From: Mesostigma viride
Lineage: Eukaryota; Streptophyta; Mesostigmatophyceae; Mesostigmatales; Mesostigmataceae
Assembly: GCA_009746045.1 (NCBI GenBank)
Contig: RPFO01000744.1
Coordinates: forward strand, 991,635 to 1,055,634
Reading direction: 5' to 3'
DNA: 64,000 nt
Part shown: piece after piece, positions 18,534-38,329 of the stretch
How positions within the stretch are numbered: the stretch's first letter is position 1
How the letters are laid out: each line of letters begins with the position of its first letter
Translations under genes and position numbers: made by a program
The notes under the pieces: generated by a model
Told to the model about the DNA's origin: nothing
Database searches by the model: none
Seen by the model: only the letters and a program-made list of their open reading frames with translations

Positions 18534-18573
18534 CAGTACCAACCCGCGGTAACGCAACTAGTTACGCAACAAA
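18534..18573 (+). repeat. Pogo-like left TIR
   Basis: 40-bp perfect inverted match to 38213-38252; starts CAGTACCAACCCGCGG after TA. The CAGT start is common in Tc1/pogo ends. Confidence 0.93.
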
Positions 18574-19354
18574 TCAAAAAAAATTAAATGACGTATTTAT
18601 ATGAAGGAAGTGTAGGGCTATCCAACGCCACCTTCCGTTGCGTAAAAGCTTATGTCTACAGAAAGATACGGGGTCAGGAAGAATCGCCATAGCCAGTTCC
18701 GCAAGTGGCACTCACCGATTTTGCGGTTCCGCAACGAGGGAGAAACGCAACAAACATGGGGTACCCTCGATGTAGGGGCCAATAATGAACTGACGCGTTG
18801 CGGTTAAAAAGGATGCGGCGGAAGTCAGAAGTCTGAAATTCGATCCTCAGTTATTTACGTCTGGCTTCCTCGTATTTACGAAAGGTGCGTAAGGGCTGCC
18901 ACCGGTACGTACAGCCGCCATGCCATATCGACGTGTTAAAATTTGGCATACACGCCAAAATTAATTTTGCCCGACAGGCTCATGAAATATAATGTGTTCG
19001 CTTGGACTGTTTATATGTACTGAAAGCATAGCATCATTGACGATGGCTTGTGCGAAATTCGCACATTATGTACAGTAAAGTATAAATCGTGGACGTGCAT
19101 AACGTGTACCAAAAAATGTGGACGCGGTGTATGTCATTCATCGTGAACGTGTACCCTCGTCCGGCGCACGCATTACATACACGTGTACGTAAGACAGGAC
19201 AACAGATATCTATGTATGAACTATCTCCTTATCTTAGCTTCTAATTTAATTTATAGAAGTGGGGATAAACAGTGTGCAGCGCATGCCTTTCACGTACTTA
19301 AATACATGTCTACCCTTAGGCGCTCTTATCTGACACTTTTCCGCATAATATGAT
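18574..19354. other. Pogo left subterminal region, no gene
   Basis: Repeated GTTGCG/CGCAAC words (near 18638, 18697, 18731, 18744, 18797) resemble the TIR interior. AT-rich beyond 18950. Only short open frames. Confidence 0.55.
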
Positions 19355-20085
19355 AACTGCCTGTACATGTAAGTGGGTGCACACGGGTGTAGTACACTCC
19401 GGGTGTACACGGGTGTACACGCCGGGTGCACTTCGGTCTACTGCCACACGCTAAGGCGCTTTTGTATGCACTGTATGTGGTGGCGTGATCCACAACGTCG
19501 TTGTGGGTCACGCTACACTTCGGCCCACCGCCACGCCTAAGTGTCGGCGCTTGCATACTGTACATATGTTATGTAGTGGCGTGATCCACAACGTCGTTGT
19601 GGGTCACGCTACACTTCGGCCCACCGCCACGCTCAAGTGTCGGCGCTTGCATACTGTACATATGTTATGTAGTGGCGTGATCCACAACGTCGTTGTGGGT
19701 CACGCCACTACATACAGTGCATACAGTGCCTTAGCGTGTGGCAGTAGACCGAAGTGCACCCGGCGTGTACACCCGTGTACACCCGGAGTGTACACCCGTG
19801 TGCACCCGGGAGTGCAGACCGAAGTGGAGCGTGACCCACAACGACGTTGTGGGTCACGCTACACTTCGGCCCACCGCCACGCTCAAGTGTCGGCGCTTGC
19901 ATACTGTACATATGTTATGTAGTGGCGTGATCCACAACGTCGTTGTGGGTCACGCCACTACATACAGTGCATACAGTGCCTTAGCGTGTGGCAGTAGACC
20001 GAAGTGCACCCGGCGTGTACACCCGTGTACACCCGGAGTGTACACCCGTGTGCACCCACTTACACTTGTACATGTACAGGCAGTG
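19355..20085. repeat. Compound inverted-repeat block, GTGTACACCCGG family
   Basis: Outer arms are inverted: CTGCCTGTACATGTAAGTGG on the left, its complement with a short extra on the right. Inside are several near-perfect hairpins built on GCGTGACCCACAACG plus its complement (for example near 19486, 19572, 19678, 19829), and direct copies of ACACTTCGGCCCACCGCCAC. Related copies lie at 31376-31697 and 35423-35560, all inside the pogo-like element. Open frames over it are shadows. Confidence 0.85.
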
Positions 20086-20206
20086 CCGAGCGCCGAGCAG
20101 CCGACTTTCAGGTGAACCGCCCAAAGCAATTGAACATAATGCATGGAGCGATAATGTACGCCCAAAACCAAAACCTAGAGGAAGCATTTTCGCGCACAAG
20201 CGCGAA

Positions 20207-20214
20207 TATATAAA
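20207..20214 (+). promoter_or_regulatory. TATA-like box upstream of oxygenase gene
   Basis: TATATAAA about 110 bp before the ATG at 20325, in an otherwise non-coding AT-rich leader. Inferred from position only. Confidence 0.35.
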
Positions 20215-20324
20215 ACATCAAATATTTACTGATACTGCATTCATTATCTACTTAGTCATACCACAAAAAAAAAAAATACCACGCGGGTTGTCAGACAGAC
20301 ATACCAGTACATACATTGTACATA

Positions 20325-20426
20325 ATGGCGTCTGTAGAGCCACCAGATCCTGCGAAGGAGCTAAATCGCAAACTCAATGCCAACGCCCGGCGAGCTACGT
20401 ACGTGGCTAAGCGGATTAAAGAAATG
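20325..20426 (+). pseudogene. 2OG/Fe(II) oxygenase gene, 5' piece
   Basis: First 34 codons, starting MASVEPPDPAKELNRKLNA and ending RIKEM, interrupted by the copia LTR at 20427. The reading resumes at 24982 after the second AAATG target copy, giving KEM then GKDAW without a frame change. The ATG is the first in its frame after the TATA-like box. Before the insertion the gene was a single uninterrupted ORF of 322 codons. The segment is hydrophilic and probably helical, with no signal peptide. Confidence 0.75.
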
Positions 20427-21256
20427 TGTTTGGATTGGGAGAGGAGACTAATGGGTTTTACACAATGCCTTGTGCTTGGCCTTGCTACCCACACACCTTG
20501 CAGGTGCTGAAAGAAAGAGAGGTTGAAGACAATTTACGTGGAAGAATAAATGGCTTTATTAGAATATAATAGTTGGAGAAGAGCTTGAATGGAGGTTGAA
20601 TGGAGGTCGAATGGAGGTCGAATGGAGGTACCTGCCCTTAGGGGGCAGTTTCCTTTTATAACTTTTAGGCTAGGAAGGATGACATCAGCAATGACATCAT
20701 CACAGAAGCTTGTAGAAACATCCTAGCATATTCCTAGCATATTCCCAGCATATTCTCAGTATATTCCAGGAATATTCCTGGCATATTCTTAGAACATTCC
20801 TAGAACATTCTAGACATGATCCAATGAGCTGGCATAATAGCTAGATGCCAAGTGTCTACGTAATAATGTGCCACATAACATGATTAATAAAGTGACACAT
20901 CTCTTCTCCTTGGAGTGACAAGTGTCATGCAATGAGTCTACCCACTTGTCATCATGTAAGTCATAACATGTGTCATCATGAGCTTCCAACACTTGTCAGC
21001 TCATGGACCAAACACTTGTCCAATAGGCCATAGCACCACTTGTCAATCAAATACGTGATGCTACTAGGCTGACTCAGGTTACAAGTCATCCATGTCCAAG
21101 TATAGGACTATGGCACATGAATATTGATCAGCTCATTGAGCCTGTTCCATCTAGCTCATCATAGCTATCAAATTCCCAGTCCATATGGAATAAATCCAAC
21201 AAGAAATAAATCAGGCTGGGATATATTGTGGCCAGGTGGATATAATATCCCTAACA
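20427..21256 (-). repeat. TR-GAG copia 3' LTR
   Basis: 830 bp; contains short ATTCC(T/C)AGCATATTCC repeats (about 20700-20810). Near-identical to 24149-24976. Confidence 0.93.
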
Positions 21257-22330
21257 CCCCCCTTAGCCACATGGGCACAAAGCAAAAGATGACTGGGTAG
21301 GTGGAATCTCAACACCCCCCTTAACCACATGCTCGTAGCATGCCGTCCAGTTGCTAGCATGGTGCAACTGAAAATGAAGATGCCGTCCTCGTGAAACGCT
21401 TGAAGCTCCAACATGCGGTCATGAGCCGCACTACCGCCACTGATCCGTCCCCCCCGGCAACGCGAATGAGTGTCCTACCATAGCAGCAACGCACTAGCTG
21501 CCCATCCTGGATGGCTGATACCCAACCCTTAGTTGGAAAAAGTGCTCTAGATGCTACATTCCCCCCTCACTCAAAGCGGCTGCCCATGGACACAATAGGG
21601 GCACACAGTCCCACACATATAATACGGCAACACATGCCAACAAAGAAAGTCCCTATGAGCTAACCCAAACGGTATAGAGGTAGGGTAACGGCAACAACAC
21701 GTGCTGTACACACACGGAGCAACATAACATACGCCATCTCACAAATAAATGACACCAACATCACGTTTTACGCCAAATAAACGGGGTGAGCAAACAAACA
21801 TATTGGCAACAAATGCCACACAAACAAGGTACAATACAACCTTCAACACAAAACACAGTGGCCATAACAGATAAACACGCTTCATAGCAAAGAAAACAGG
21901 ACGTGCAAAACATTACCGCCACAAAGGCGAACACAAGTAACGATTACTTGGTCACGATTCACAAATCAGTGCCCGAGAGTAAACATTACGTCCGACATTA
22001 CAGGCTATGCCGAAATGCACAGCCGAATTCGACACAAAGGACGTAAGCATTTGCATACAAGCAATGCTCTCAGCACAAAACAAAATAACACACGCGTCAC
22101 AGGCACTTTAACTTACGAAAACAAGTCGTAGACGACGATACAACGGCGCTTCACTACGCCGCAGACAGTGCCACAAATAGCGTGCAAAAACTCTGGATAT
22201 ACACTCCAGGTACGTAGAAAACGTCTCGTGGGAACAATACCAAAATGCGTGGGCCATTGCCACTGAACGCATGGCAAAATAAACACATAATTGCTGGAAG
22301 AACACAAAGAAAGAACCAGAAAACGCACGC
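21257..22330 (-). other. Non-coding interior of copia element
   Basis: Purine tract at the LTR edge, then AC-rich sequence with no convincing ORF and no integrase or RT motif in any frame. It takes the place of the missing pol domains. Confidence 0.55.
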
Positions 22331-23272
22331 TTACGGCGCCTCACAATTTCCAGCAAACACGACACAAAAGTCGACATACAAGTTCATTTCCCACAGACAA
22401 AACATTAGGGCAACCTTGAGAGTGGGGTCTGTGCATCCTGGGCGACAATTTCCAAGGGTCGTTGCAGCTAGCGCAGTTGCAAATGCCATGGCCTGGCCGA
22501 ACACCGTAAACTGACCGACGTGATACCTTGGCAGCATTTTGCACCTGAGTTGACCGTTGGTGCTTGACGCACTTTGGCTGACAGGTCGCTGTCCACGTCG
22601 TTGTCGGCTCGCTCGAGGCCTCGCGCCAGCACCGGACTTGGCAGTCCAGGACTTGGAAAAATTTGGCAGCTTGGTCGATTTCGCCCTCGCGTCACGAATT
22701 TGTTCCCCCTCAGTTAGGCTGGCAGCGTTCGAGCGCCGCGCCTTTGGTCTGGTCGCCGGACTTTGGTTACTAGCACCAGTATCACCTGGTATGCTGGCGG
22801 CGACAACGCGCTCCGCCTGCACTGGGCTGTTCTGGACCGCGGTTTCTGGAAGTACTTCAGCGTCTGACACGGACTTCTCCATTGCGCTGGAAACTTCTCG
22901 AATTGGCGTGAACTTCCACTGGGCCGGCGCAGAGTATATAAAGCCACGCAGTGTGCGAGTAATGCCCAGTAGGCCGCCCCCGATCCCGCATACACGGGCA
23001 AGCATGGCCAGTATGACCGTTAGGCCCACGGCCAGCCACTCCGCCGCGTGTCCCGAGGCACGTGAGATGCTGCGCTCGCTGCTCGCCATTTTCTGCCCTT
23101 GACAGGCAGCGTCGTTCTTGAAGCTCGTCGCCGACGATTTCAGCTCTGGGATGGCGTCCATCGCTGCGTCCGCACCGTGCGCGGGCAAAAAGTAGGTGTT
23201 GTTCCTCGTCCGATGCTGCAGTGCCTGCTGTCCAGCACAGCAACCCGCTGGCGAGGTCGACCTTGTGGCCAT
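22331..23272 (-). CDS. Copia interior ORF, unknown, one probable membrane segment
   Basis: I do not recognise this protein. The open frame overlaps the end of the gag-protease frame and continues from its VDLASG region as QHRTRNNTYFLP, the start of a copia pre-integrase segment, but then diverges. A hydrophobic stretch (about residues 78-105: WLAVGLTVILAMLARVCGIG) predicts one membrane segment. A basic Arg/Ser-rich region follows, then a second hydrophobic tail near the end. No integrase HHCC or catalytic residues are seen. It may be filler or captured sequence carried by the non-autonomous element, or a chance frame in GC-rich DNA. Confidence 0.35.
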   Translation of the reverse strand: MATRSTSPAGCCAGQQALQHRTRNNTYFLPAHGADAAMDAIPELKSSATSFKNDAACQGQKMASSERSISRASGHAAEWLAVGLTVILAMLARVCGIGGGLLGITRTLRGFIYSAPAQWKFTPIREVSSAMEKSVSDAEVLPETAVQNSPVQAERVVAASIPGDTGASNQSPATRPKARRSNAASLTEGEQIRDARAKSTKLPNFSKSWTAKSGAGARPRASRQRRGQRPVSQSASSTNGQLRCKMLPRYHVGQFTVFGQAMAFATALAATTLGNCRPGCTDPTLKVALMFCLWEMNLYVDFCVVFAGNCEAP

Positions 23273-24083
23273 CCTTGACGAGCTGGCCGACTGATAGAAG
23301 TCGGGTGCTCAGCCTGGGAACGAGCAGCGCGTTTTGGAGGTGCACGTCCGCGTCCTGACCCGGCAGCTTCAGTTTGACAGTCCCGATGGCTGTCGCCTTC
23401 AGTTGGCCGCCTGAGCCGGCGATTTCCCTGTCATGAGGGTGCAGGCACACGAAGTCCGACGGGCATGGCGTCATGTGACAGCTCGCTGCGGAATCCAGCA
23501 CCCAGCTGGTCGGTGCTTTCTTTTCATACTGCGTGAGTGCAGCAGCATCCGACGGCGATGGCGACTCGGCGATGGTGGCGAAGACGAAGCCGGACCGCTC
23601 CGCAGCCTCCTCGGTGATACGCGCCTCGCTGGCACCTGGTGAGTGCTCCTTTCTCGCTTGGTTCCGTCGCGTTGCCTTGTTCTTGCGTTCTTGCTTCAGC
23701 TCCGGATGCTTCTCCCAGCACTGGGTGTCCACGTGCCCGGCCTTCTTGCAGTAATTGCACCGCCTCTTTCCTCCACTTTTCTTCGTAGTAGTGTGGAAAA
23801 CCTGGCCGTTAGGGGAGCCCTCCTTCTTTGCTTGAGCAGAACGCCTTCCGTGCAGTAGCTCCTCCGCCTCCAGCAGCGCAGTCTTGACCTCCTTTAGCGA
23901 ATCCTCCTCTCCAGTTAGGACCTTGACCAGGTCACAATAGGCCGATGCTAAGGCCTTCAACACAGCCTTGATTTCTTCCCATTTCCTCAGAGACCGCCCA
24001 TCAAACGTTGTGATGGACTTGCTTGTTGCCCGGAATTGCTTGTAGCACGCTTCCTTGGTAGCCATGGTGTCTTCAGTCGCCAA
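22857..24083 (-). CDS. gag: Copia gag and protease
   Basis: 408-codon frame. Residues 1-100 are a helical gag core (YKQFRATSKSITTFDGRSL, KVLTGEEDSLKEVKTALLEA). The CCHC knuckle at about 110-123 is CNYCKKAGHVDTQC, which packages RNA. The copia protease begins with SWVLDSAASCHMTP (about 191-204); the canonical DSGAS is DSAAS here. A pre-integrase block LLSVGQLVKDGHKVDLASG follows, after which the frame is no longer protein-like. It starts 66 bp inside the 5' LTR. The translated product could supply particles, but copying needs an autonomous partner. Confidence 0.83.
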   Translation of the reverse strand: MATEDTMATKEACYKQFRATSKSITTFDGRSLRKWEEIKAVLKALASAYCDLVKVLTGEEDSLKEVKTALLEAEELLHGRRSAQAKKEGSPNGQVFHTTTKKSGGKRRCNYCKKAGHVDTQCWEKHPELKQERKNKATRRNQARKEHSPGASEARITEEAAERSGFVFATIAESPSPSDAAALTQYEKKAPTSWVLDSAASCHMTPCPSDFVCLHPHDREIAGSGGQLKATAIGTVKLKLPGQDADVHLQNALLVPRLSTRLLSVGQLVKDGHKVDLASGLLCWTAGTAASDEEQHLLFARARCGRSDGRHPRAEIVGDELQERRCLSRAENGEQRAQHLTCLGTRGGVAGRGPNGHTGHACPCMRDRGRPTGHYSHTAWLYILCAGPVEVHANSRSFQRNGEVRVRR

Positions 24084-24148
24084 TGGAACTGGATGTCTCT
24101 GGGTTCACAGTGGTCTTCTTGTTCCTCAGTAACAAACCTCCGATACCA

Positions 24149-24976
24149 TGTTTGGATTGGGAGAGGAGACTAATGGGTTTTACACAATGCCTTGTGCTTG
24201 GCCTTGCTACCCACACACCTTGCAGGTGCTGAAAGAAAGAGAGGTTGAAGACAATTTACGTGGAAGAATAAATGGCTTTATTAGAATATAATAGTTGGAG
24301 AAGAGCTTGAATGGAGGTTGAATGGAGGTGAATGGAGGTGAATGGAGGTACCTGCCCTTAGGGGGCAGTTTCCTTTTATACCTTTTAGGCTAGGAAGGAT
24401 GACATCAGCAATGACATCATCACAGAAGCTTGTAGAAACATCCTAGCATATTCCTAGCATATTCCCAGCATATTCTCAGTATATTCCAGGAATATTCCTG
24501 GCATATTCTTAGAACATTCCTAGAACATTCTAGACATGATCCAATGAGCTGGCATAATAGCTAGATGCCAAGTGTCTACGTAATAATGTGCCACATAACA
24601 TGATTAATAAAGTGACACATCTCTTCTCCTTGGAGTGACAAGTGTCATGCAATGAGTCTACCCACTTGTCATCATGTAAGTCATAACATGTGTCATCATG
24701 AGCTTCCAACACTTGTCAGCTCATGGACCAAACACTTGTCCAATAGGCCATAGCACCACTTGTCAATCAAATACGTGATGCTACTAGGCTGACTCAGGGT
24801 ACAAGTCATCCATGTCCAAGTATAGGACTATGGCACATGAATATTGATCAGCTCATTGAGCCTGTTCCATCTAGCTCATCATAGCTATCAAATTCCCAGT
24901 CCATATGGAATAAATCCAACAAGAAATAAATCAGGCTGGGATATATTGTGGCCAGGTGGATATAATATCCCTAACA
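24149..24976 (-). repeat. TR-GAG copia 5' LTR
   Basis: 828 bp, followed on minus by the PBS. The open frame running from this LTR into 24982 is an accident of insertion; the real start of the downstream gene is at 20325. Confidence 0.93.
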
Positions 24977-25848
24977 AAATGGGCAAAGACGCCTGGCTGG
25001 AGCAGCGCAGAGAAGCCCGGAAGAAGGAGTACGCAGCAGAATCGGCTGCTGTGAAGGCCGAGGAGCCGTGGGCAGTAGCGAAGCGGGATTGCGATAACGC
25101 CCAGCGGCGCTTCTTGTACCGCAACAAAGAAGTGGTGCAGACGCTGTGCAGGCAACGAGCCGCCTTGTCACCCATGGATTCGGTTGCGCATGAGGCCCAA
25201 ATTGCTCTTGGGACGAGCGGCTTATTTAGGACATCAGGTCTTGTGATGCCATCAGAATTGGCCCTGCTTCGTGAAATGTCTCAGCCTGGAAATACGGTCT
25301 ATGAGCCGATCTTCAACGCGCTAACTTACAACAAGAAAACTCGCGCATTCGTGACAAATTCTGGTGACAAGCACCGATGGATGGGCTTCGTGCCCTTCGA
25401 TCAGGGTGACCCGGCGCGTAGGATCGCAAATCGTCTGGTGCGTGTCCTGATGGGCCCGGACGGCAAGCATTTCCCAGTGAAGGGCTACTTTCTGTGGAGC
25501 AAGGCGGGATGCGAAGAGCAGCCCGCCCATTCGGACTACACGCGATACCCGGGAGCATGGGATGTGAACTGCCCCGTGTCGGTCATAGTGGCCCCCTTCG
25601 CTGGCACATCGTTTGTGTACTGGGAGAACAGTATACTGTACCCAGGCCTGGACAACATGAGCTCCCGCCCTGACGTCAAGAAGAAGACGTTAGTGTTGGA
25701 GGCCGGCGATGTCTTGGTGTGGCACGGGGCGCTTGTGCACGCGGGAGCGGCGTACAAGGAAAGGGATAACTTTCGTTTTTTCTTCTACGCCCCGGCACAG
25801 GGTGAGAAGGGGCTCGTGAAGGACGCGGTGAACCCCGTCCTCGTTTAG
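24977..25848 (+). pseudogene. 2OG/Fe(II) oxygenase gene, main piece
   Basis: Carries residues 35-322 of the interrupted protein. Residues 35-110 are charged and helical. The catalytic double-stranded beta-helix follows. Visible ligands are His217 and Asp219 in PAHSDYTRYPG, distal His287 in GALVHAGAAY, and Arg299 in NFRFFFYAP, the spacing expected for H-x-D...H...R (iron, then 2-oxoglutarate). Known members hydroxylate or oxidise proteins, lipids or nucleic-acid bases; substrate cannot be told here. TET/JBP base oxidases occur with KDZ transposons in fungi, which makes a base substrate worth testing. The active-site residues are intact, so only the copia insertion breaks the gene. Confidence 0.72.
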
Positions 25849-27167: not shown

Positions 27168-28812
27168 TCAGGCACCAAACACCAGCCACTTGAGGGCATA
27201 GTTGAAATCCGTCTGCTTGGTAAGGGTGTCATGCACAGCCTCCTCGCCCTCCTCCTCCGGGTCCCACAGGACGTTGAACGACCAGCCTGCCGTTGTCTTC
27301 TTGGGCAGCGGCTCGACACGGACCGAGTTGCGTGGCGGTGTGTTGGCGATGGTACCGTAGTACCACTTCCAGTAGGGCTTGCCGTCATCCCCCTCCACAT
27401 CCCACAGCTGGCAGATGCGCCTGCCAACCATGGACTCAGGGGTCAGCTGAGAGAGGTGCAACACCTGGGCGGCCAGCAGCTCGGACGCCACAGGTGGGTC
27501 GATCTTCTTATCCTGCATGCGCTTGTACGCACCCTCCTTGTACGCATGCGGGTCGTCCTTGTTGGCATGCGGGTCCCACTTGATGATGACGCGAGCCTTC
27601 TTCGTGGGTGACGCCTTCTTCTTGGGCGACGCCTTGGAGGAGGTGGCGGGGCCCGCCTTGGTGGTGGTGAGGCCAGCCTTGGTGGTGGCGGGGCCCGCCT
27701 TGGTGGTGGTGGGGCCCGCCTTGGTGACGGTGGGGCCCGCCTTGGTGACGGTGGGGCCCGCCTTGGTGACGGTGGGGCCCGCCTTGGTGACGGTGGGCGC
27801 CGAGTGAACCGGTGGGAGGACGTCTGTCTCGTCAATGAACGGTGCCACCTCCTCGGAATCCTCGAACGTTGACAGGCGTTTCATTTCGTACCGCCTCTTG
27901 AATGGCACCTGCACCTTGTCACCATGATGTGTCACAGTGGGGGGGGATGGCTCGTCATCGTCCTCGTCGTCGCAGAGGTCGTCCTCGTCGTAGTCCTCGT
28001 CACTGTCCTCGGCATATGACACCTGCACGCAGTGAGGTGAGGTAAAGCAGCAGCAATGATGATGTCTGTCATGCGTGTACGGGCAAGAAAACCAGCACGG
28101 AGACTGTGTACGCTGGACTAGGGAACCCCATGCATACTAAAATGGGTCACAAAAGTACCGCTACCTTAAGGGTTACACACTCACAACTCCTACATTGCAA
28201 ACAATAACAAGCAAGGGACAATCTGACAAGCATGGACATACCTTCTTGCGAGCCGCACGCGTGCGCTTGCGTGGGGGCACGGCAGCTTCGCCATCTGGGC
28301 GGGCATTGGAGGTGGTCGCGGCCTCCACCACAGGGGTCGGGACAGCTGGCGCCGTCTTTGTGTTGTTGGTGGATGAGCCCGCACGCCCCCTCTGCTTCTT
28401 GGTGGGCGGGCCACCTTGGGCAGCATTGTGGGCGGCCAGCGTCTTCTTGCTGCCCCATACGCGGCACTCCTCGGGGGGTTTGTAGCCCACCACCCCCCTC
28501 TCACCTGCTGCATCTGACGCAGGGGGGGGGGGCAACCCAGTTGGGGTCGACCTCGAAAACGGTGCCTTCAGCGGGCATGGAATCTGGACCGGGCGTGTTG
28601 GCCAGGGGCACCCGCAAGGAAGCAGCCTCAACCTGTTACATACATACAAGGCAAACACACACACACACGGTGCGAGGCAGGCCAACACGCAAAAAGTCAG
28701 CTAAAGGGATTGTGCGGACAGGACAAGTATCAGTTGGTTTGCCAAGTTGGCGAAGTCAGCCAGTGGTCCACACATTGCAAAGGCACACCAGCTGAGTTCT
28801 TTTGACATGGTG
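27168..28812 (-). CDS. Transposase gene, C-terminal extension exons
   Basis: Probable 3' exons of the transposase. One exon (about 28645-28250) encodes VEAASLRVPLANTPGPDSMP, then after a G/C-run frameshift VVGYKPPEECRVWGSKKTL and a basic tail PPRKRTRAARKK (possible nuclear signal). A GT donor follows. The last exon opens after TGCAG near 28026: acidic EDSDEDYDEDDLCDDEDDDE, then 21-bp coding repeats GPTVTKA/GPTTTKA (about eight), a Lys-rich region, and a terminal 90 residues with CQLWDVEGDDGKPYWKWYYG and FNVLWDPEEEGEE. That end resembles a small beta-barrel reader (Tudor/Agenet-like), but this is a guess. Ends WLVFGA at 27168. Linkage rests on GT-AG signals and shared strand. Confidence 0.55.
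27651..27800 (-). repeat. Coding 21-bp minisatellite
   Basis: About eight units encoding GPTVTKA and variants on minus; the first four are nearly identical at DNA level. Confidence 0.88.
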
Positions 28813-30765
28813 TCAGAGGATTGATGAAAATGCTCGACTACGCGAGTTATTAGCAGCCTGACTTACCGCATCAGCGTTGGGAGTGACCGCCAGTTCCTCG
28901 TCAGTTGGGCGTGGGACCTCGTATTTCGTGAAGCCCTCGGGGCAGACGAGTGCGTCGCGCTTCGGATCCCGCTGGAGGCTGACGGCACAGCCGGTCTGCG
29001 TCCAGCCCTTCATGATGGTCAGCCTGCCCTCAGGCCCGCAGAGGCGGATCCAGGCGATAGCCACGGCATTCTGGATGATGATCCGCGTCTCGGAGGCGTT
29101 GGGCGGGTCAAGCCCTGGCATCGCGGGCCCTCGCGTCCATTATGCGGGTGACCTCCGCGTCAAACCAGCGCTTGAACACGGCATTGATGCAGCAGTCATT
29201 TGGCTGCCACAAGTGGGTCATGTTGCCCGGCCCATACCAAGGCAACACCCCCATATCCCGGAGGGCTTTCCGAAAGGCGTCGGAGACCTGCATGCACCGA
29301 TCCACCGCAGCACCAAAACACCCAGGCATTGGAAACGACACATAAAAAAAAGAGAATATTAGTCTCCGGCATCATCATCACCACATGCCTTGCAGCCAAC
29401 ATGCACATGCACTGAAACGAAACAAGCCAAAGAAAATTGGGGTAATAAGGAAGGAAACACATGCCCACCTGAACAGCGAGGTTGTCCAAGAACAAGAGGA
29501 CGTCACGCTTGCCGTACTTGGCGTAGACTTCTTCAAAAAGGCTTCAAACAGTTGCAACCACACCTCCGGGGCGTGGTCGCTGAACCAGGCGGAGGCCTGA
29601 AAGGTGACAACCGCCTCAGGCATGTACTGGTTGGTCTCGTAAGCCATACGAGCCACGTTCTTACCCGCGCCGGGGAAGATGATGAGGGGGGGGGCATGTC
29701 AGCCAGCCAGTTCTCGTCAAAGGGGGAGTGGGGGGCGGTGGTCAGGCAAACGGTAACTGCCCGGTGCTTGTAATCCACCTTCTTGGTGCCCATGTTCACG
29801 TGGGACGCCCCTTTCTCCGCGAAGCACTTGCCCTTCATGTTCCTCAAGGCAAGGCCCACCTGGTCCATGTTAAACCGAAACGTGCCGGTAGCGGGGCCGA
29901 TGGGGAAACGCCCCCAATATGGGTCCCTGAGCGCCCTCAAGCCGCTGTTCAAACCGGCGACGATGAGCCCGGAATGAAACTGCTGCAACGCGGGCAACGC
30001 CTCCTCCATGGTGACATTGCGGTGGTTGCTCGCCATCCGCGTGACAAGGCCCCGTCGGCACGCGAACTCGCGGGCCCACGTGTCGGAGTACGCAAAGCCC
30101 ATCCCCGCGTCGGGTAATGTTTAGCCATCAAGATCTTGGCCTGTGCTTTGACGACGCTGCAATACGATTGGGAAAAACAGGCACGCAAGCAATGAGAGGG
30201 CGACAATCAGCAAGCTTTTGCGCTCCTTCGAATGTTCACCAAATACACATGCCGCTGTTTAAAGACAGAAACTACCCATCAGTGTTTTCAGCAAAACGAA
30301 GAACAAGGAAAGCATGCAAACTTACGCAAGCACAGGGGCTCTCTTCTGGCTGACGATCCAGTCCCTCAAATCCGCCTCCATTAATGGAAAGCGGCCTTCT
30401 CGTTGTTTGCCGGGCACCAACCCTCGGCCCGAGTGGTTTTTCAGGTTTGGGTCATCAGCCATGGCACGGATCTTCGCCTTCGTCTCAGATTCCAGCCACC
30501 GGCAGACGGTCGAAGTGCTCACTCCATATTGCTTGGCGACGGCCGACGGCGTGGTAGTTCCCTGTTCGATACACGTGACTGCGACAACTTTCTGCTTCGC
30601 GCTCACGAGCGTGACCAGCTTTGTCTTGGGTGGCTCCAGGATGGGCGCCGCCTTGTCGTCAGCGGTGGGCAAAACATTGTCACTATTGGCCGGAACGCGC
30701 GCGCACAGCTGCGGCTGTCTCCGCCGTGGTTTAGCCCCACTTTCTTTGCCTGTGAAGTTAGTCAT
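28813..30765 (-). CDS. Pogo/Tigger-like transposase, HTH and DDD core
   Basis: Exon 1 (30765-30326): basic N-terminus, a helix-turn-helix (KQKVVAVTCIEQ...AVAKQYGVSTSTVCRWLE) and a CENP-B/Tc5-type second HTH (GRFPLMEADLRDWIVSQKRA). Intron 30325-30157 (GTAAGT...CAG). Exon 2 holds FNMDQVGLA (first Asp) and, after three single-base shifts (near 30108, 29690, 29545), LLFLDNLAVQ (second Asp). Intron 29468-29288. Exon 3 reads VSDAFRKALRDMGVLPWYG, then THLWQPNDCCINAVFKRWF (third Asp), the DDE_1 signature of pogo/CENP-B relatives. A frameshift near 29115 leads to a C-terminal block ending TPNADA at a GTAAGT donor. It would cut and rejoin the element at TA sites. Frameshifts make this copy doubtful. 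Confidence 0.85.
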
Positions 30766-30992
30766 GGGGCGTGGCTATGGCGCCAGCCCTCGTGGTGGGC
30801 ACACGTGTACAGTATGGATGGTGCGCACACTTGGGTTGTGCGCAGGTCAGGTTGGTGGTGGATGTGCCACAGGACGACCGATGCTCTTTTTTATATGCAA
30901 ATTTGGGCGCCAAACTCAATTTGCACCGACTTTGCCAGATATTTGCCGACCTACACGTGGCTGAGTTGACGTTTCGCGGGCATCGGACGCGC

Positions 30993-31015
30993 GGGTTAGT
31001 CAGTGTTGCGAATCT
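30993..31015. repeat. 23-bp direct repeat, left copy
   Basis: Starts GGGTTAGTCAGTGTTGCG; the same 23 bases occur at 35317-35339. The pair brackets the USP-like gene and the tandem repeats. Confidence 0.8.
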
Positions 31016-31050
31016 GACCATTCGCAAATCGGCGTCGGGCCTGGATCTGG

Positions 31051-31370
31051 CGCCTCGCAATTTGAAATTGCCGTCTCATTAGGTACGCAATCTACCGACT
31101 TGCGTACATAAGTAGTACTGTAGGACGGCGCAAGGGCGCAAGTGCGCACTTGTCGCGCCTCGCAATTTGAAAATTGCCGTCTCATTAGGTACGCAATCTA
31201 CCGACTTGCGTACATAAGTAGTACTGTAGGACGGCGCAAGGGCGCAAGTGCGCACTTGTCGCGCCTCGCAATTTGAAAATTGCGTCTCATTAGGTACGCA
31301 ATCTACCGACTTGCGTACATAAGGAGTACTGTAGGACGGCGCAAGGGGGCCAGTGCGCAACTTGTCGCGC
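31051..31370. repeat. Three tandem units of about 105 bp
   Basis: Units start CGCCTCGCAATTTGAAA at about 31051, 31156 and 31262 and are nearly identical. Each holds TACGCAATC...GACTTGCGTA, a small inverted repeat. They lie between the divergent transposase and USP-like genes, so they could be regulatory or transposase-binding. Confidence 0.9.
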
Positions 31371-31375
31371 CTCTT

Positions 31376-31697
31376 CACCGTGTACACCCGGCATGTATAC
31401 CCGGAGTGTACACCCGGAGTGTACACCCGTGTGCACCCGGGAGTGCAGACCGAAGTGGAGCGTGACCCACAACGACGTTGTGGGTCACGCTACACTTCGG
31501 CCCACCGCCACGCTCAAGTGTCGGCGCTTGCATACTGTACATATGTTATGTAGTGGCGTGATCCACAACGTCGTTGTGGGTCACGCCACTACATACAGTG
31601 CATACAGGGCCTTAGCGTGTGGCAGTAGACCGAAGTGCACCCGGCGTGTACACCTGTGTACACCCGGAGTGTACACCCGTGTGCACCCACTTACAGG
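31376..31697. repeat. Second copy of GTGTACACCCGG hairpin repeat
   Basis: Matches part of 19355-20085, including the GCGTGACCCACAACG hairpins and the ACCCACTTACA end. Confidence 0.87.
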
Positions 31698-31776
31698 CGG
31701 ACTTGAGGATGAATTACCATCCTTGAAAAAATGATGTTTTGACGTAGGTGGTCGGAAAGTTGCACGAACGGCAGCG

Positions 31777-33837
31777 ATGGCAGACGGCTTGGCTACGTCG
31801 GCGGAGAGAGTGAAGGACACACTGGCCACCATGCGCTCGACATTGCGTGAGCCGGTAAGTACAGTAGACGGTTACGCAGTTGGCGGGTATAATTTCATGT
31901 TACGCGGCTGGGCATATTACGGAGACAAGGTCGTTGTCCCTGGCGTTATGCAGGCAGGTGATGCGTGGCCGGGCGCCATGCCCTTTTTGTTTTTTTTGGG
32001 CCAACATGCACCTGATGCTTTTCGTCGGTTGTTGACAACCCAATCTGGTGGCTGGCATCCATGCTTTGGACGTACGCGGGCCGGGATGCACGTGCACGGA
32101 GCGCAGGTGAACAATTGCAAGACACCGAATGACTTCGTCAGTCTGTCCAGAGATTTTGAGGGCTCTCCCGTTGAGAGGCTCGTCGTTACCTTACACACGA
32201 AACAGGAGTTACACAGGCGCAAGGATGACCTGAAGAAGCTGGCTGGCGATACGTGGGACGTCAACGCATGCACGGCCGCCGTAAGGTTTTCCCTGTAATG
32301 TAGCTACAATGTTGTTGCTTTCTGTTGGATGCATTGCAGGTAGAATGCTAGGCCTTGAACCAACCGGCCGAGGCACATGGGTGACGTCTCTGAATTTGTG
32401 GCATGGGGTGTTCCTGGTTTCATGCTGCTTCAATGTACATGGATGCCGTTTGTACGCAGCATCGACGACTGAATGAGCACCAGAATAAGCGCGCTGCAAA
32501 GGTGTGGCCTGTCAAGAGTGAGCGCGATGCAAAGCTGCGGAAGCTTGGAGCCTCAACATCGTCTGCTGATGAGCAGAAAGAGGCTGAAGGTGCAGCGCCG
32601 GTTGCGTCTGGGGGTAATACACGGCAACCAGCGACGCAGGGTCAGCTCGCAGTCCTTCCCCCGCCCCTAACCTCCGCCTCCCCCCCAATGCCGTCCTTGG
32701 CTCTCTCAGGGGGCTTATCAAGCCTCCCACATGCGGACAGTGCTGCCCGTGCTGGCTACGAGGTAGCAAATGAGGCGCAACATCTGCTTCGAGCTGCGCT
32801 AGAGGCTTTGCAAGGCGTGACAGCAAGTGCGGCGCCATCCTTAAAGACCCCGTTGCAGCGGGTAATCTGGCGCAGGCAGTCGTGACCAACCAGATACTCG
32901 CGCAGGTAGGGCTCCTGTTATTTTGCACTGAGTTTACCTGTTTATCGGGTTGTTTGTTGTGTTCAAGCAGTAACGTCTTATCTGAGCATCTCCATTGTTA
33001 GGATGTCCACGGCCTTGGCACACCGGGCTTATTTACAGCAATAATCTGCCTGGTGATGTGTGTGATCGGCACTGTGTGTTGCAGCTCATGCGCGTGGCAT
33101 CAGCAGCCAATCGGGGCAGCGGGGACGAGGCCGCCACGGCGGTGGTGGGCGGGGGCAGCGGGGACGAGGCCGCCACGCCGGTGGTGGGCGGGGGCAGCGG
33201 GGGTGAGGCCGCCACGGCGCCGGTGGGCGGGGGCAGCGGGGACGAGGCCGCCACGCCGGTGGTGGGCGGGGGCAGCGGGGGTGAGGCCGCCACGGCGGTG
33301 GTGGGCGGGGGCAGCGGGATGAGGCCGCCACGGCGGTGGTGGGCGGGGGCAGCGGGGACGAGGCCGCCACGCCGGTGGTGGGCGGGGGCAGCGGGGGTGA
33401 GGCCGCCACGGCGCCGGTGGGCGGGGGCAGCGGGGACGAGGCCGCCACGCCGGTGGTGGGCGGGGGCAGCGGGGGTGAGGCCGCCACGGCGGTGGTGGGC
33501 GGGGGCAGCCGGGATGAGGCCGCCACGGCGGTGGTGGGCGGGGGCAGCGGGATGAGGCCGCCACGGCGGTGGTGGGCGGGGGCAGCGGGGACGAGGCCGC
33601 CACGCCGGTGGTGGGCGGGGGCAGCGGGGGTGAGGCCGCCACGGCGCCGGTGGGCGGGGGCAGCGGGGACGAGGCCGCCACGCCGGTGGTGGGCGGGGGC
33701 AGCGGGGGTGAGGCCGCCACGGCGGTGGTGGGCGGGGGCAGCCGGGATGAGGCCGCCACGGCGGTGCATGGTGGGCGGGGGCAGCGGGGGTGAGGCCGCG
33801 GGCAGCGGGGGCGGGGTCGCGGCCAGCAATGATGGGT
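31777..33837 (+). CDS. Cargo gene with USP-like domain: N-terminal exons and repeat region
   Basis: Exon 1 (31777-32280): MADGLATSAERVKDTLATMR, then a domain with GGYNFMLRGWAYYGDKVVVPG and HPCFGRTRAGMHVHGAQVN that I do not recognise. A GTAAGG donor at 32281 and an acceptor at 32457-32459 join in phase to exon 2 (32460-32905), which is Lys/Ala-rich then Ser/Pro-rich (HRRLNEHQNKRAAKVWPVK) and reads, after one frameshift, NLAQAVVTNQILAQ to a GTAGGG donor. From 33085 (after TTGCAG) the product is LMRVASAANR followed by a 13-residue repeat region. The linear order leads directly into the protease domain at 33838-35074, so I infer a single gene. Confidence 0.55.
33108..33800 (+). repeat. Coding minisatellite, 39-bp unit with higher-order period
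   Basis: About 17 units of 39 bp encoding SGDEAATAVVGGG and variants (SGGEAATAPVGGG and others). Variants recur in the same order every six units, so the array grew by block duplication. Two units lack a base and shift frame. Pro/Arg-rich minus-strand frames over it are artefacts. Confidence 0.93.
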
Positions 33838-35074
33838 GGACAGTTTCTGAAGATGCGGAGGAGGTGGACAGTGCTGAGAAGCGCCCAACCGAGGAGCAGG
33901 CACGTACGGGGCCTCACGCATTCATAGACGTGGATGCTGAGGCGGATGCGGCTGAGGCTGCGGCTGAGGCTGCGGCTGCGGCTGCGGGGGGAAGCGAAAG
34001 CGAAAACCAAGGGATCCCGCGCCACTGAAGGTGGTGGGTGATGATGCCCCGTGCACGCCTTGCCAGCAGGGTGCCAGGTTTATGGCGGAGCAAGACTTGG
34101 TCGTAACAGGCGAGCATCAACGCGTTATGAAAAACGAAGGCAACAGTTGCTTCTTAGATGCAGCAGTTGACGTGATTTTTTTTACCATCTTGTTTGTCTT
34201 GCAAACACTTGGCGCCCCAGGACTGTCATTCCTCGTGACACGTCCGCCTGGTCTGCCACATACCCCGGATATTTGCCGGATCGGCTGGATTCTCATGAAA
34301 TTGATGTTCTACCGGAGTGCTGGTAGGCTGGACATGATGACTAAATGGCGGAACATGCTGTTTGATCAGCTTTCCAAAGTCGCCCGGGTGCGTGAGCTGC
34401 CGATTAAAGTGGGAGGAATGGGGTCCGTCCATGAAGCATTGTCGGTACTTCTTGTACATTTGAAGGGGTGCCAGCCTACCTTTACACCCTACAAGTGTGT
34501 CGCACGCGCTTCGGAAAAAGAAGATTGTGAACCCCCGCATCCAATCGACCTACGGCGGGGGCACAGTTCCGTACTGGCACGCCTCATGGACAACGCCGGT
34601 TTGTTGGCCAACATGCGGGCTGTCTGCCTGGAAGGCTATATAAGCATCCACCAAGTCGCACGGTGTAAAAGCTTGGGACCGGAACCGTGCCTGAGGCAGC
34701 GTGTCTTTAAAGGCAACCCCGCATACCTGGTGTTTACCAAGCTCCATGGGCTGAAGCGTACCCCCTTGGACGAGTACAGTGGGCCTCCTTTGCCCGTCGC
34801 TTTCAATGTGGAAATTAATGTGGATGAAGACGGTGCCATGTCTAAACGCACAGTGGACCTGCGCCTTGCAATTCTCATGCGAGCGTATTATAAGCACTGG
34901 ACCACATTGGTGCCTGCAAGCACTGACCCCACCAGGTGGTGCGACAAGTGGGTGGAGTATGATGACCTTTTGGAAACCGTCCAGCCACGTGGTCGTCTGA
35001 GTGATGTCGTCCAGCAGTTGACCGGCTGCATGTATGGAGCGGTGTACCGTGTGATTACGCCATGCCAGAACTAA
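33838..35074 (+). CDS. USP-like (C19) cysteine protease domain
   Basis: After the minisatellite: acidic SEDAEEVDSAEKRPTEEQ, an EAAAEAA tract, then, past a frameshift in the G6 run near 33990, basic KRKRKPRDPAPLK (nuclear-signal-like). The catalytic domain (34031-35074) has a Cys box KNEGNSCFLDAAVDV (Cys codon 34148-34150) and, about 250 residues on, a His box YYKHWTTLVP (His codon 34895-34897) followed by WVEYDDLLE (Asp). The order Cys-first, His-last fits ubiquitin-specific proteases and excludes Ulp1, which is His-first. USPs remove ubiquitin; insertions between the boxes make the fold assignment tentative. It ends in a TAA at 35072. It could protect the transposase or alter chromatin, but that is speculation. 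Confidence 0.6.
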
Positions 35075-35316
35075 CCGAGTGCAGTGTCAATCATGCTCCA
35101 CGGCTCCCCACCGGGACTCCGCGTAGTTAATTAAGTAATGCCAATAAATGTGAATGGTGAGGACAACTTAATATCAACTTGTCATCGAGTACTGACCGCG
35201 TACATGTGTCTCCCATGCACATGCTGACAGGTTTACTGGGGATTAGCGTGCACTTTAGGTTAGTCAGTCAGTCAGTTTATTCCCACGCCGGTTATCCGAC
35301 AGAGTTATATTAAGGG

Positions 35317-35339
35317 GGTTAGTCAGTGTTGCGAATCTC
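35317..35339. repeat. 23-bp direct repeat, right copy
   Basis: Exact copy of 30993-31015 in the same orientation. Confidence 0.8.
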
Positions 35340-35422
35340 GCCTCCTAAGTCCTACGATAATCTTAGTTAATACTCGTACATTATTACAACTAGGTACTGG
35401 TGAACTTATGAACTTTCTACAG

Positions 35423-35560
35423 AATACACCCGGCGTGTACACCCGTGTACACCCGGAGTGTACACCCGTGTGTACCCGGGAGTGCACTGCGAAGTGGAGC
35501 GTGACCCACAACGACGTTGTGGATCACGCCACCACATACATATGTACAGTACATACTTGT
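35423..35560. repeat. Third copy of GTGTACACCCGG hairpin repeat
   Basis: Short copy with ACACCCGGCGTGTACACCCG and the GCGTGACCCACAACG hairpin, diverged at the right side. Confidence 0.85.
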
Positions 35561-36862
35561 ACTAGCGCCGACACTTGGTTAAACATACATGAACATTAAT
35601 ACTTGTGACATGATTAGAATTAATATAATGGTAACCCCTTCTTTGCTGGGTAAATAATAATAGTTAGTAACTTGGGCTGGACAAGCATGGTTAAGGTAAT
35701 GGCAACATGACTTGCCTAAAGCATTGTTGTTCACTTTGTCTTGACCACCATGGTAAGGGTACATGGTAACATCACTTGGCGTGTATCAAATGGTGACTTG
35801 GGCTTGACAACCATAGCTAGTGTAGATGGTACCATCACTTGGCTTGATTTATTAAGTTAGACAACTAACTTGATAAACATTGGAGGCCTGAGGTTGAGTT
35901 CCATGGTTATGGTAGGGGTAATACCAGCATCACTACCCTAACTCATTAATTGAGTGATGTTTAATTGAGTATGTTAGTGGGAGCATGTACAATGTGATTT
36001 TAATTTTAAATTTAATTAAATTATAACATGCCTCCGCTGGGGGGCCATGTAGCACATATTCCAGTGGGGGGTGGGGGTGGGTGGAAGCTGAACCGCGGGG
36101 CCCAAAGGGGGCCATCTATTCTAATCTACTCTAAACCTTTCTAGCCTTGCGCTTGCCCCGCCCTGTGGTGGGGGGTTTGCCCACAGGGGCAGGCTCATGT
36201 GCCAAGACAATGTCTTGCCACAATGTGATATGACTTCCACTATGAGTATAAAAGTCCTCATGGCATCGGGAAGGAGGGTTAAGGCGAGACATGGGGCCCC
36301 CAGCAATATGACCGCCCGTGCATGCAATGCAGCCTACAAACTAATGTTTCACTTAATACAAACTAATGCACAGTCAACCTAAACTATACTAGTACGATGA
36401 AAGGCTAGACACCCCGGGCCCCACGACGGAGGGCACGGCTAGCCCGCCGGCTAGCACGGCTAGATGTAGCATGTTCCTTCCAATATGAACCTAAATCTCC
36501 TGCATCAAGTATATAGCAGTCATTCACTTTATATACATGCATGCTGTAGCGAGCAAATAAGTGGACAACTGAAAGGGGTCAACCAATTTAATTGCAAAGC
36601 CGTAGTATGTCTGCAAGCAAGCCTGCCTTTAGATAAGGAGAGTTGGGTCTTATGATACCAGGCTTCCTAACACTCTAGCAACGATGGAAGTTTATGTTCA
36701 TCATGGCACTACATCCATGTAAGTACCGTACTGTAGGTTGTCTCCACATATCGCTGATCAATTCTACTTGTGTTGGAAAGGTTTTTCCATCAGAATAATG
36801 TATGCACACACTTTGGTGGGTCACAGAAGGGTTAGCATGACATGCGTCCAGCCAAGGTTGTT

Positions 36863-37852
36863 TCACTTAGCACATTCTCCATCGCCACATCCCTTTGCGG
36901 CAAAATCGTCCACCGGCACAGCCCCTGGCGCCACAGCCACTGGCGGCTCAGCCATTTGCGCCACAGCCACTTCCGGCACAGCCACTGGCGCCACAGCCAC
37001 TTGTGGCACGGCCACTTGCACCACAGCCACTTGAGATGATGCCACTGGCGCCACATCCTCGAGAGCCGCATCCACTCCCGGCACAGCCACTGGCGCCACA
37101 GCCACTTGCGCCACATCCACTTGCGGCAAAGCCTCCTGTGGCACAGCCACTTGCGGCACAGACGCTTGCTGCACAGGGTTCTCTTCCTTGTAGTTGGCCC
37201 TTCGCCAGACGTCCACGCTACGGCGGGCATTGGCAATCAACTCGCACTTGCCTTCGTGATTAAGCAAAAAGTGCCGTGCTTGACATTCCGAGGAGCAATA
37301 AGTTGCGTCCATGCAATCCCGGCATACCTTCAGATCGACGCCAGCGCCACCATTGAAACACTTGACGCAACGACCACCCTCGGACGGCTTCTCGTCATAA
37401 TAGAACAAAACCCCGTCGCAGTCACCCGGAGTTCCCTGCGCGGTGACGGGGAAAGACGCCGCGACTAAGACGCCGTCGTTGTCGCGCTCCGTAAATCGCA
37501 CAAACACGTCGTAGCGAGACGAAGACTGGCGAGGAATGCCTGCGAGATAAGCGGCAACGCTCGTGCCTGCAAATTCTGCCAACAGGGCGTTTGCGGAGAC
37601 GAAGCGCAGGGGGACGGCAGTAAATGCCTCCGACAGGTACTCAACAGGAAAACGCGCCTCCAAAAGCAGCACCGTCTCCTCCGAAAGATTCTTCAACTTC
37701 TTCTCGGTGTTCATCTGGATCGTTACGTTGGGCACGGCCGAAATGCAGCCGCGAAATGTTTGTAGATATTCGTAAAAATCATAAATGACGACGTCTCTCG
37801 CCGCCGCCATTTCACGACGCTCCGGCAGCACTGTCAGCCGGGAATATCTCAA
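36863..37852 (-). CDS. MYND zinc-finger protein with Val/Ala/Pro repeats
   Basis: 329 codons; an internal Met (MAAARDVVIYDFYEYL, at 37810) may be the true start. Residues 20-160 form an unrecognised alpha/beta region. A MYND finger spans about 162-203: C162-x2-C165, C177-x2-C180, YCSSECQ (C186, C190), H199 and C203, the full ligand set. MYND fingers usually bind proline-rich partners in chromatin or signalling complexes. Residues 228-315 are a degenerate repeat of PQVAVP/VAVAPVAVP units, at DNA level a 15-18 bp minisatellite. It ends GCGDGECAK. The ORF is unbroken, the only clean cargo gene of the pogo-like element. Confidence 0.8.
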   Translation of the reverse strand: MRYSRLTVLPERREMAAARDVVIYDFYEYLQTFRGCISAVPNVTIQMNTEKKLKNLSEETVLLLEARFPVEYLSEAFTAVPLRFVSANALLAEFAGTSVAAYLAGIPRQSSSRYDVFVRFTERDNDGVLVAASFPVTAQGTPGDCDGVLFYYDEKPSEGGRCVKCFNGGAGVDLKVCRDCMDATYCSSECQARHFLLNHEGKCELIANARRSVDVWRRANYKEENPVQQASVPQVAVPQEALPQVDVAQVAVAPVAVPGVDAALEDVAPVASSQVAVVQVAVPQVAVAPVAVPEVAVAQMAEPPVAVAPGAVPVDDFAAKGCGDGECAK

Positions 37853-38212
37853 TGGCGATTCCTTCCATCTGCTTCATAATACCACGAAACCAGCTTTTAG
37901 AGCAAAAGTTATGGATGGATTGTGAAGTTCGAAGTGAGACGATGCCTGTGAATATACATGCGCACGCAGACCTCGCCACCTTGGAAATAAAACAGTCAAG
38001 ACGCCAACCCATGCAATATGTATGTAGGGGGCTCCTCTTTACGTTCTGTACTTCTGTACGTACTTTACGTGTTGGGCCGGTGGTCAGCTCGTAACAAGTC
38101 AGTCAGTCTGTCTCGTGCGGAACTTCAAGTACAGAATTCGCCACCACTTTGGGCCGTATCGGTCCTTGGTAGTTACGCAACAAACATTCGAACGGTCGCC
38201 GTGGAAAGTACC
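37853..38212. other. Pogo right subterminal region
   Basis: No gene. Contains an extra inverted copy of the TIR interior (GTTACGCAACAAAC at 38172-38185) and lies upstream of the MYND gene, so it probably holds its promoter. Confidence 0.5.
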
Positions 38213-38252
38213 TTTGTTGCGTAACTAGTTGCGTTACCGCGGGTTGGTACTG
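38213..38252 (-). repeat. Pogo-like right TIR
   Basis: Perfect 40-bp complement of 18534-18573, followed by TA and the continuation of the gypsy chromodomain. Confidence 0.93.
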
Positions 38253-38254
38253 TA

Positions 38255-38329
38255 CAATGGAAGTTCAGCCTGTCGGAGGCAGACCCCATGCCCGACTTCA
38301 AGCACATCCCCAACGTAACAAGAGCATGA
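38255..38329 (+). pseudogene. End of gypsy chromodomain reading
   Basis: Continues from 18533 across the TA in the same frame: WKFSLSEADPMPDFKHIPNV then TRA and TGA at 38327-38329. The stop overlaps the ATG of the next ORF (ATGA). Confidence 0.7.

Follow-up and report, generated by a model that had tools for sequence, protein, structure and literature searches.

Evidence for a young family of giant, multi-gene pogo-superfamily transposons in Mesostigma viride

How should a 19.7-kb stretch of the Mesostigma viride genome be read when it has the terminal inverted repeats (TIRs) and the transposase of a pogo-type DNA transposon and also holds several other genes? The locus lies in a stretch of 64,000 nucleotides (contig RPFO01000744.1 of assembly GCA_009746045.1, positions 991,635 to 1,055,634 of the forward strand), which was analysed at its full length and is called the window here. 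We conclude that the element in it very probably belongs to a young family of giant cut-and-paste pogo-superfamily transposons with many copies in the genome, a conclusion that concerns structure and mobility and not the function of the cargo. A unit of five genes has been amplified between the same ends, and the unit in the window has inserted at a TA site.

The element occupies 19,719 base pairs (bp) of the window (positions 18534–38252) and sits inside a gypsy chromodomain. Perfect inverted repeats at 18531–18573 and 38213–38255 measure 43 bp with the flanking GTA/TAC, of which 40 bp belong to the element. The perfect 40-bp TIRs with TA on both sides, described in an earlier note made from the window alone, were confirmed, and a pattern search with the TIR returned 174 genome matches at two mismatches or fewer, versus 0 for the reversed control. 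Of 43 distinct flanks, 41 have TA directly outside the TIR, most of these loci having been fetched by a pattern that itself contained TA, and the six bases beyond are not conserved; when the pattern lacked TA, seven of the eight flanks had TA and one had CA. The same note had observed that the flanks rejoin the gypsy chromodomain in frame, and this also held: with the element removed they join as ...VEAIVGHRDQKRGRGMVRKYRVQWKFSLSEAD..., a sequence whose match to Chromo is weak (E 0.0028, under the Pfam cut-off). The joined 187-bp sequence is unbroken at no fewer than 14 other gypsy places, at 90–99% identity, a lower bound from 40 of 54 candidates scored (13 matches over 1–187 and one over 1–186). 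For the window copy, these empty sites therefore establish where the element went in and that TA was duplicated. The features of the element are as follows.

18532–18533, no strand: left TA target duplication (flank reading and empty sites)
18534–18573, plus strand: left TIR, 40 bp, first bases CAGT (TIR pattern search)
20325–20426, plus strand: first 34 codons of the oxygenase-like gene, severed by a copia insertion (N-terminus as in the matching gene model)
20427–24976, minus strand: nested copia-type long terminal repeat (LTR) element, outside the core (Pol_BBD; LTRs 20427–21256 and 24149–24976, 99.5% identical; target duplication AAATG)
24982–25848, plus strand: remainder of the oxygenase-like gene, with an HxD...H...R motif and a short PhyH match (profile and genome search)
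27171–28136, minus strand: probable C-terminal extension of the transposase (tblastn 5e-18, 37.5% over 120 residues versus C998)
28867–30765, minus strand: pogo-type transposase, helix-turn-helix (HTH) then DDE_1, DD35D, frame broken in the window copy (predicted exons 30765–30326, 30156–29469 and 29287–28867; profile match)
31777–32298, plus strand: 173-aa protein, no assigned function (22 full-length stop-free matches 98–100% identical, one degraded match 69%)
33113–33799, plus strand: 39-bp tandem repeat array of about 17.6 units, preceding the protease-like frame (differs between copies)
34082–35074, plus strand: cysteine-protease-like gene, resembling a ubiquitin-specific protease (USP) by motif, hypervariable between copies (genome search and copy comparison)
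36866–37810, minus strand: MYND zinc-finger gene with a repetitive tail (zf-MYND profile match)
38213–38252, minus strand: right TIR, 40 bp (TIR pattern search)
38253–38254, no strand: right TA target duplication (flank reading and empty sites)

The DDE_1-type transposase reported earlier from this interval was confirmed when the predicted exons were joined (DDE_1, PF03184; E 2.3e-8, 34.2 bits versus a cut-off of 22). A second lineage is represented by the divergent locus C998, where a transposase relative (C998:1519838–1522755; 49–52% identical in its main parts; DDE_1 at 22.7 versus the cut-off of 22) is accompanied by a MYND relative (C998:1515212–1515802; 42% identical). There, as in the window element, MYND gene and transposase share a strand and the MYND gene comes upstream; about 4 kb separates the two at C998. 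Judged from sequence identity, this association is older than the window family. The catalytic triad is spaced as DD35D in both lineages, inside the published pogo range (PMC7386202, taken, like the other papers cited here, from the part of the text that was available). The transposase at C998 is followed by a stretch similar to the frame at 27171–28136, which is therefore probably a C-terminal extension of the window transposase. Both this probable extension and the 173-aa gene have to be added to the gene content given in the earlier note, whose cargo genes were themselves confirmed as part of the element. Splicing out a 68-nucleotide GT-AG stretch would carry the transposase frame past its C-run, but this was not adopted, because in the relative at C998 the equivalent segment is read through. 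In the mechanism that we favour, the transposase would recognise the 40-bp TIRs, excise the element and join it to TA, and would also mobilise shorter, non-autonomous relatives with common ends.

The search of the M. viride genome (439.9 Mb in 2,243 contigs) with the TIR and the cargo proteins, which the earlier note had suggested, uncovered further copies with the same gene set and empty TA sites. Gene matches less than 45 kb apart were chained and merged with the TIR positions, yielding 31 clusters; pairings and counts are lower bounds throughout, resting on part of the 174 TIR matches and on a limited number of scored candidates in several searches. In at least 11 of the 31 clusters, both TIRs are present and enclose the full set of five genes in one fixed order within 15.9–50.9 kb: from left to right, oxygenase-like (plus strand), transposase (minus), 173-aa (plus), protease-like (plus) and MYND (minus). 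These copies are C168 (15,884 bp), C302 (35,563 bp), C557 (43,616 bp), C1568 (32,238 bp), C1635 (17,975 bp), C1661 (28,116 bp), C1679 (20,345 bp), C1702 (19,935 bp), C1746 (39,701 bp), C1934 (50,934 bp) and C2034, the window copy (19,719 bp). All five genes were detected in each, several of them split by insertions or with stops, as is the oxygenase-like gene in C302 and C1568 and the protease-like gene in C557 and C1635. A further copy, C1984, has both ends across 33,802 bp and four genes. Long blocks of C168, C302 and C1568 align with the window element at 96–99.8%, and nested insertions are present in those of the larger copies that were read. At least one cargo gene occurs in 24 of 24 clusters with a close transposase copy, a count from which the weaker transposase places C998, C1713 and C1813 were left out; no cargo match was seen adjoining the last two, among the matches listed. 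The giant cargo-bearing pogo/Tc1-mariner lineage proposed earlier is thus supported by these clusters together with the empty sites: the long copies hold the cargo between the shared TIRs, and many short TIR copies are without it. The refuting outcome named in the earlier note, with cargo never inside TIR-bounded copies or always bounded by other ends, did not materialise for the long copies.

The length of 19.7 kb stands as that of the TIR-bounded unit and was ruled out as the intrinsic size of the element, because 4,550 bp of it are the nested copia, which has LTRs of about 830 bp of a type with many copies in the genome and interrupts the oxygenase-like gene at codon 34. The C168 copy, which lacks this copia insertion, measures 15,884 bp and the window element minus its copia about 15.2 kb, so that the core element is about 15–16 kb. 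Reading the frame upstream of 24979 as oxygenase was rejected, since its first 46 codons are copia LTR; the oxygenase part alone was used as query in the genome search for oxygenase relatives, with 117 of 117 candidates scored.

Several observations weigh against the reading of the window element as one copy of a giant pogo family. Protein searches found no homologs outside Mesostigma of the transposase, of the protease-like protein or, at E ≤ 1e-3, of the oxygenase-like protein, so that the position of the transposase in a pogo tree is presumptive. The N-terminal HTH falls narrowly under the Pfam cut-offs (CENP-B_N, 20.9 versus 21.2; HTH_23, 24.4 versus 24.6). Cargo without transposase was found in 7 of the 31 clusters (C1212, C1260, C1324, two on C1579, C1910 and C2207), and contig ends explain only some of these, C1260 and C1910 lying at contig starts. 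The frame of the window transposase has several breaks, some not common to C168, C302 and C1568, and stops interrupt the match to transposase residues ~292–382 in 22 of the 24 close clusters (one match on C2 is open across these residues, and C1934 is mixed); autonomy today is therefore unproven. At C998, oxygenase-like and protease-like relatives were not found among the genome-search matches listed, and therefore only the link between MYND and transposase is shown to predate the family. Two loci have unusual arrangements. On C1579, the oxygenase-like, 173-aa and protease-like genes occur twice about 102 kb apart (C1579:5897918–5903561 and 5999689–6005348), without transposase, MYND or listed TIRs, which looks like a duplicated fragment. 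C2:1963163–1972780 contains inverted duplicated parts (two protease-like genes, two 173-aa genes and two transposase first exons) and is a fold-back or an assembly error.

What the cargo encodes is known with unequal firmness. Of the three cargo genes described in the earlier note, the MYND gene stands on a profile match (28.1 bits versus a zf-MYND cut-off of 22.7; 27.4 for the C998 relative), whereas the names of the other two are predictions. For the oxygenase-like protein, the name comes from a PhyH match (22.8 versus a cut-off of 22) that covers 23 residues and from an HxD...H...R pattern shared without change by four sequences, the most distant at 32–34% identity, which we take to be the motif of 2-oxoglutarate (2OG)-Fe(II) oxygenases. 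Tet_JBP was absent from its Pfam matches up to E 5, so that by Pfam it is not a TET/JBP protein, and its AlphaFold model (predicted local distance difference test (pLDDT) 39.5) was too poor for fold comparison. At E ≤ 1e-3, a protein search matched it to just three M. viride gene models, which are 97, 90 and 76% identical to it, and 97–98% over aligned residues. More distant relatives lie elsewhere in the genome: an inverted pair at 73–74% identity (C1324:3598796–3601819), two places at about 34% (C1967:1099927 and C2078:325565), and multi-copy groups with near-equal scores, one of about 20 places at 35–36% over almost the whole protein and one of six at 32%. Two further groups, of about 12 places each, match its C-terminal part at 37–38% and 33–34%. 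Example loci of such groups are C490:10189, C1047:101, C1635:208571, C1663:42953, C1475:96606 and C14:412879.

The designation USP-like for the protease-like protein comes from conserved residues. N17, C22, H271, W289 and D293 are invariant in four sequences, with relatives at 34–46% identity among them, and the Asn/Cys, His and Asp positions may correspond to the Cys box, His box and Asp of USP (C19) proteases. No Pfam match, UCH included, was found to E 5 and no relevant Protein Data Bank (PDB) match to E 10; PDB searches with the element proteins in general gave nothing relevant. The AlphaFold model of the protease-like protein (pLDDT 38.6) was again too poor for fold comparison. Among the matches listed, the genome search gave 94 for this protein, most of those outside the family being 25–46% identical. 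Examples of these diverged loci are C335:4003574, C1391:1175863, C1824:526045 and C1:8414622; some of the family lie in very long open frames and some occur as several copies with equal scores. Equal-scoring copies of oxygenase-like and protease-like genes on many contigs suggest that such genes may be carried by other repeats too. The 39-bp minisatellite upstream of the protease-like frame may, in some element copies, encode a Gly/Ser-rich repeat N-terminus.

Does the cargo contribute to the life of the element? The oxygenase-like, protease-like and MYND proteins may have accessory functions, in erasing or blocking host silencing marks, as the earlier note had surmised, or in aiding the transposase. 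We hold this view tentatively, as a serious possibility, because well-preserved copies have these genes repeatedly, the MYND gene shows constraint, and a divergent relative has retained MYND together with transposase. The constraint is seen in the MYND frame (36866–37831), which has 13 of 966 sites variable, versus 18 of 421 in the non-coding flank (19 right-end copies; Fisher p 0.0013; 4 of the 13 sites fall in a single 10-bp stretch inside the repetitive tail, and 66 flank sites past the stop were excluded), and the close MYND matches are stop-free in 22 of 23 cases. A rather doubtful alternative is that a block of chromosome was taken up a single time by an ordinary pogo element and has since been copied along with it as inert baggage with no role in transposition. 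The copies are young and near-identical, and co-inheritance alone would hold their genes together; the copia breaks the oxygenase-like gene in the window, and cargo genes that are split or contain stops occur in some of the other copies; and neither the protease-like gene (synonymous:nonsynonymous sites 5:26, p 0.23) nor the oxygenase-like gene (1:5) shows purifying selection. Inert baggage would not, however, be expected to leave the MYND coding sequence constrained relative to its flank and almost always stop-free, or to recur as a MYND–transposase pair where the transposase is only about 50% identical. Oxygenase-like and protease-like relatives in further multi-copy groups are also what recurrent cargo would produce, these groups being known as repeats only and not as transposons.

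The protease-like gene varies far more than its surroundings. Across four copies (window, C168, C302 and C1568), 31 of 987 sites are variable, whereas five gene-free neighbouring stretches have 5 of 3,263 (~0.15%), an excess of about 20-fold (Fisher p 1.7e-15), and other coding stretches have 16 of 3,288 (p 3.7e-10). Three of the five gene-free stretches, and likewise some of the coding ones, come from two or three copies; in the two gene-free stretches to which every one of the four copies contributes, 2 of 1,012 sites are variable. The changes are clustered at codons 16–21, 102–108, 157–159 and 219–230, and synonymous sites alone exceed the gene-free level (p 2.3e-4). The gene is also less identical to the window than is a 771-bp neighbour in 18 of 19 copies, and more identical in one, by rounded percentages in the copies that were scored full-length for both stretches, out of 20 with a full-length protease-like match besides the window. 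A formal claim that dN exceeds dS was rejected: the codon-level count of 1:27 looks extreme, but the site-level count of 5:26 (23% expected) does not reject neutrality, and only the hypervariability stands. Sequence exchange with alleles or paralogs that have diverged, or else selection of a diversifying or balancing kind, fits these results better than age does; the polished short- and long-read assembly may homogenise or mix repeat copies. A bolder reading, which we regard as speculative and on present evidence unlikely, is that a streptophyte pogo lineage became giant with a counter-silencing kit of oxygenase, ubiquitin-type protease and MYND reader, in which gene exchange plus balancing or diversifying selection would keep the protease varied among copies that are otherwise near-identical, much as would happen in an arms race against a host factor or if copies of the element recognise one another. 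It draws on the contrast in variable sites, the raised synonymous sites and the 18 of 19 copies; the site-level count, which fits neutrality, weighs against it. The hypervariable gene would offer a handle on the interaction partner of the cargo.

Non-autonomous relatives of DNA transposons usually lack the genes of the full elements, and candidates of this kind accompany the large family. The left end pairs with another type of right end at least 30 times, 25 of the pairs spanning 4,951–7,239 bp and five spanning 11.5–28.5 kb. Eight such elements were read (L039–L050; four of 5.2–7.2 kb and four of 11.5–19.6 kb, one without its last ~0.2 kb), and tblastn found neither transposase nor cargo in any of them. 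They have in common with the large element about 560–680 bp on the left (blocks of 85–98% identity) and about 223 bp on the right (94–97%). Their right TIR ends in CAAT, versus CAAA in the large element, and their CTAA left end is also found in most large copies. They look like non-autonomous passengers.

These short pairs and the transposase stops could instead be read together as a dying giant and its living short derivative, with all large copies now immobile and relying for movement, at present or formerly, on one or a few that are intact or on a related transposase. We consider this two-component arrangement unlikely. It would explain why 22 of 24 close clusters have stops in one and the same part of the transposase, and why short end pairs outnumber complete large copies by 25 to 11–12. 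The large copies are nevertheless young, given the ~0.15% of sites at which gene-free neighbouring stretches differ, and the stops, which are possibly decay or homopolymer errors, need not be real in an assembly published as PacBio-based and Illumina-polished (PMC6947507). An assembly chimera, or chance nesting of unrelated repeats between two TIRs, might be imagined in a genome rich in nested repeats and for a copy that itself holds a nested copia, but it is scarcely credible and was rejected, because five genes stand in the same order between TIRs at 11 loci, the copies read are 96–99.8% identical and the empty sites are exact. Elsewhere in the window, a long C-rich minisatellite with units of 36–145 bp lies outside the element (43067–44940). 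An Rfam search gave no match, and neither did a search of viral contigs.

How, then, does a giant family of this kind compare with known systems? Its relatives in the pogo superfamily (Tigger, Fot, Passer and Lemi) are like it in DDE_1 transposase, DDxD spacing and TA duplication. The pogo elements surveyed, however, measure 1.20–5.20 kb and have one or two open reading frames encoding transposases (PMC7386202), whereas the window family has a core of about 15–16 kb, reaches 50.9 kb and holds four further genes. In the literature searched by title and abstract, with most subscription papers outside its scope, no giant pogo element and no pogo element of Mesostigma was described. If the reading of the window element as one copy of such a family is true, a pogo/Tc1-mariner element, the textbook minimal transposon, can become a giant multi-gene element that moves as a unit with very short ends.

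Precedents for a transposon-borne oxygenase or ubiquitin-like protease come from fungi and plants. Fungal DNA transposons of many lineages carry a TET/JBP dioxygenase, proposed to provide escape from methylation silencing (PMC12730594), and the oxygenase gene recurs there in several transposon lineages much as oxygenase-like genes recur here in several multi-copy groups. They differ in that the available text of that paper does not name pogo or mariner, and in that the window family has no Tet_JBP match and carries protease-like and MYND genes in addition. M. viride has 5-methylcytosine (PMC6947507), and a transposon-encoded oxygenase would therefore be directly testable as an eraser of silencing marks. 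The plant VANDAL and Kaonashi Mutator-like elements (MULEs), with the anti-silencing protein VANC and a Ulp1 protease domain (PMC13317346, PMC6446971), are likewise DNA transposons of the plant lineage, with a ubiquitin-like-protease domain where the window family has a USP-like motif; by contrast, they belong to the Mutator superfamily, with another transposase, other ends and Ulp1, and the available text mentions no oxygenase or MYND protein. The fungal TET/JBP transposons and VANDAL MULEs therefore provide precedents for an oxygenase or a protease in a transposon, whereas neither the pogo chassis nor the size nor the combination has a precedent in the literature searched. Finally, Starships and other giant eukaryotic transposons (PMC6431247) are likewise tens of kilobases long and multi-gene. 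Starships are classified by a tyrosine recombinase, whereas the window element is marked by a DDE transposase, TIRs and a TA duplication, and the 2019 review of giant transposons treats Helitrons, Polintons, Teratorn and Terminons, with mariner and pogo unmentioned in its available text (PMC6431247). If true, our reading would add to these known giant kinds a giant transposon of the TIR type, placed near the base of the plant lineage.

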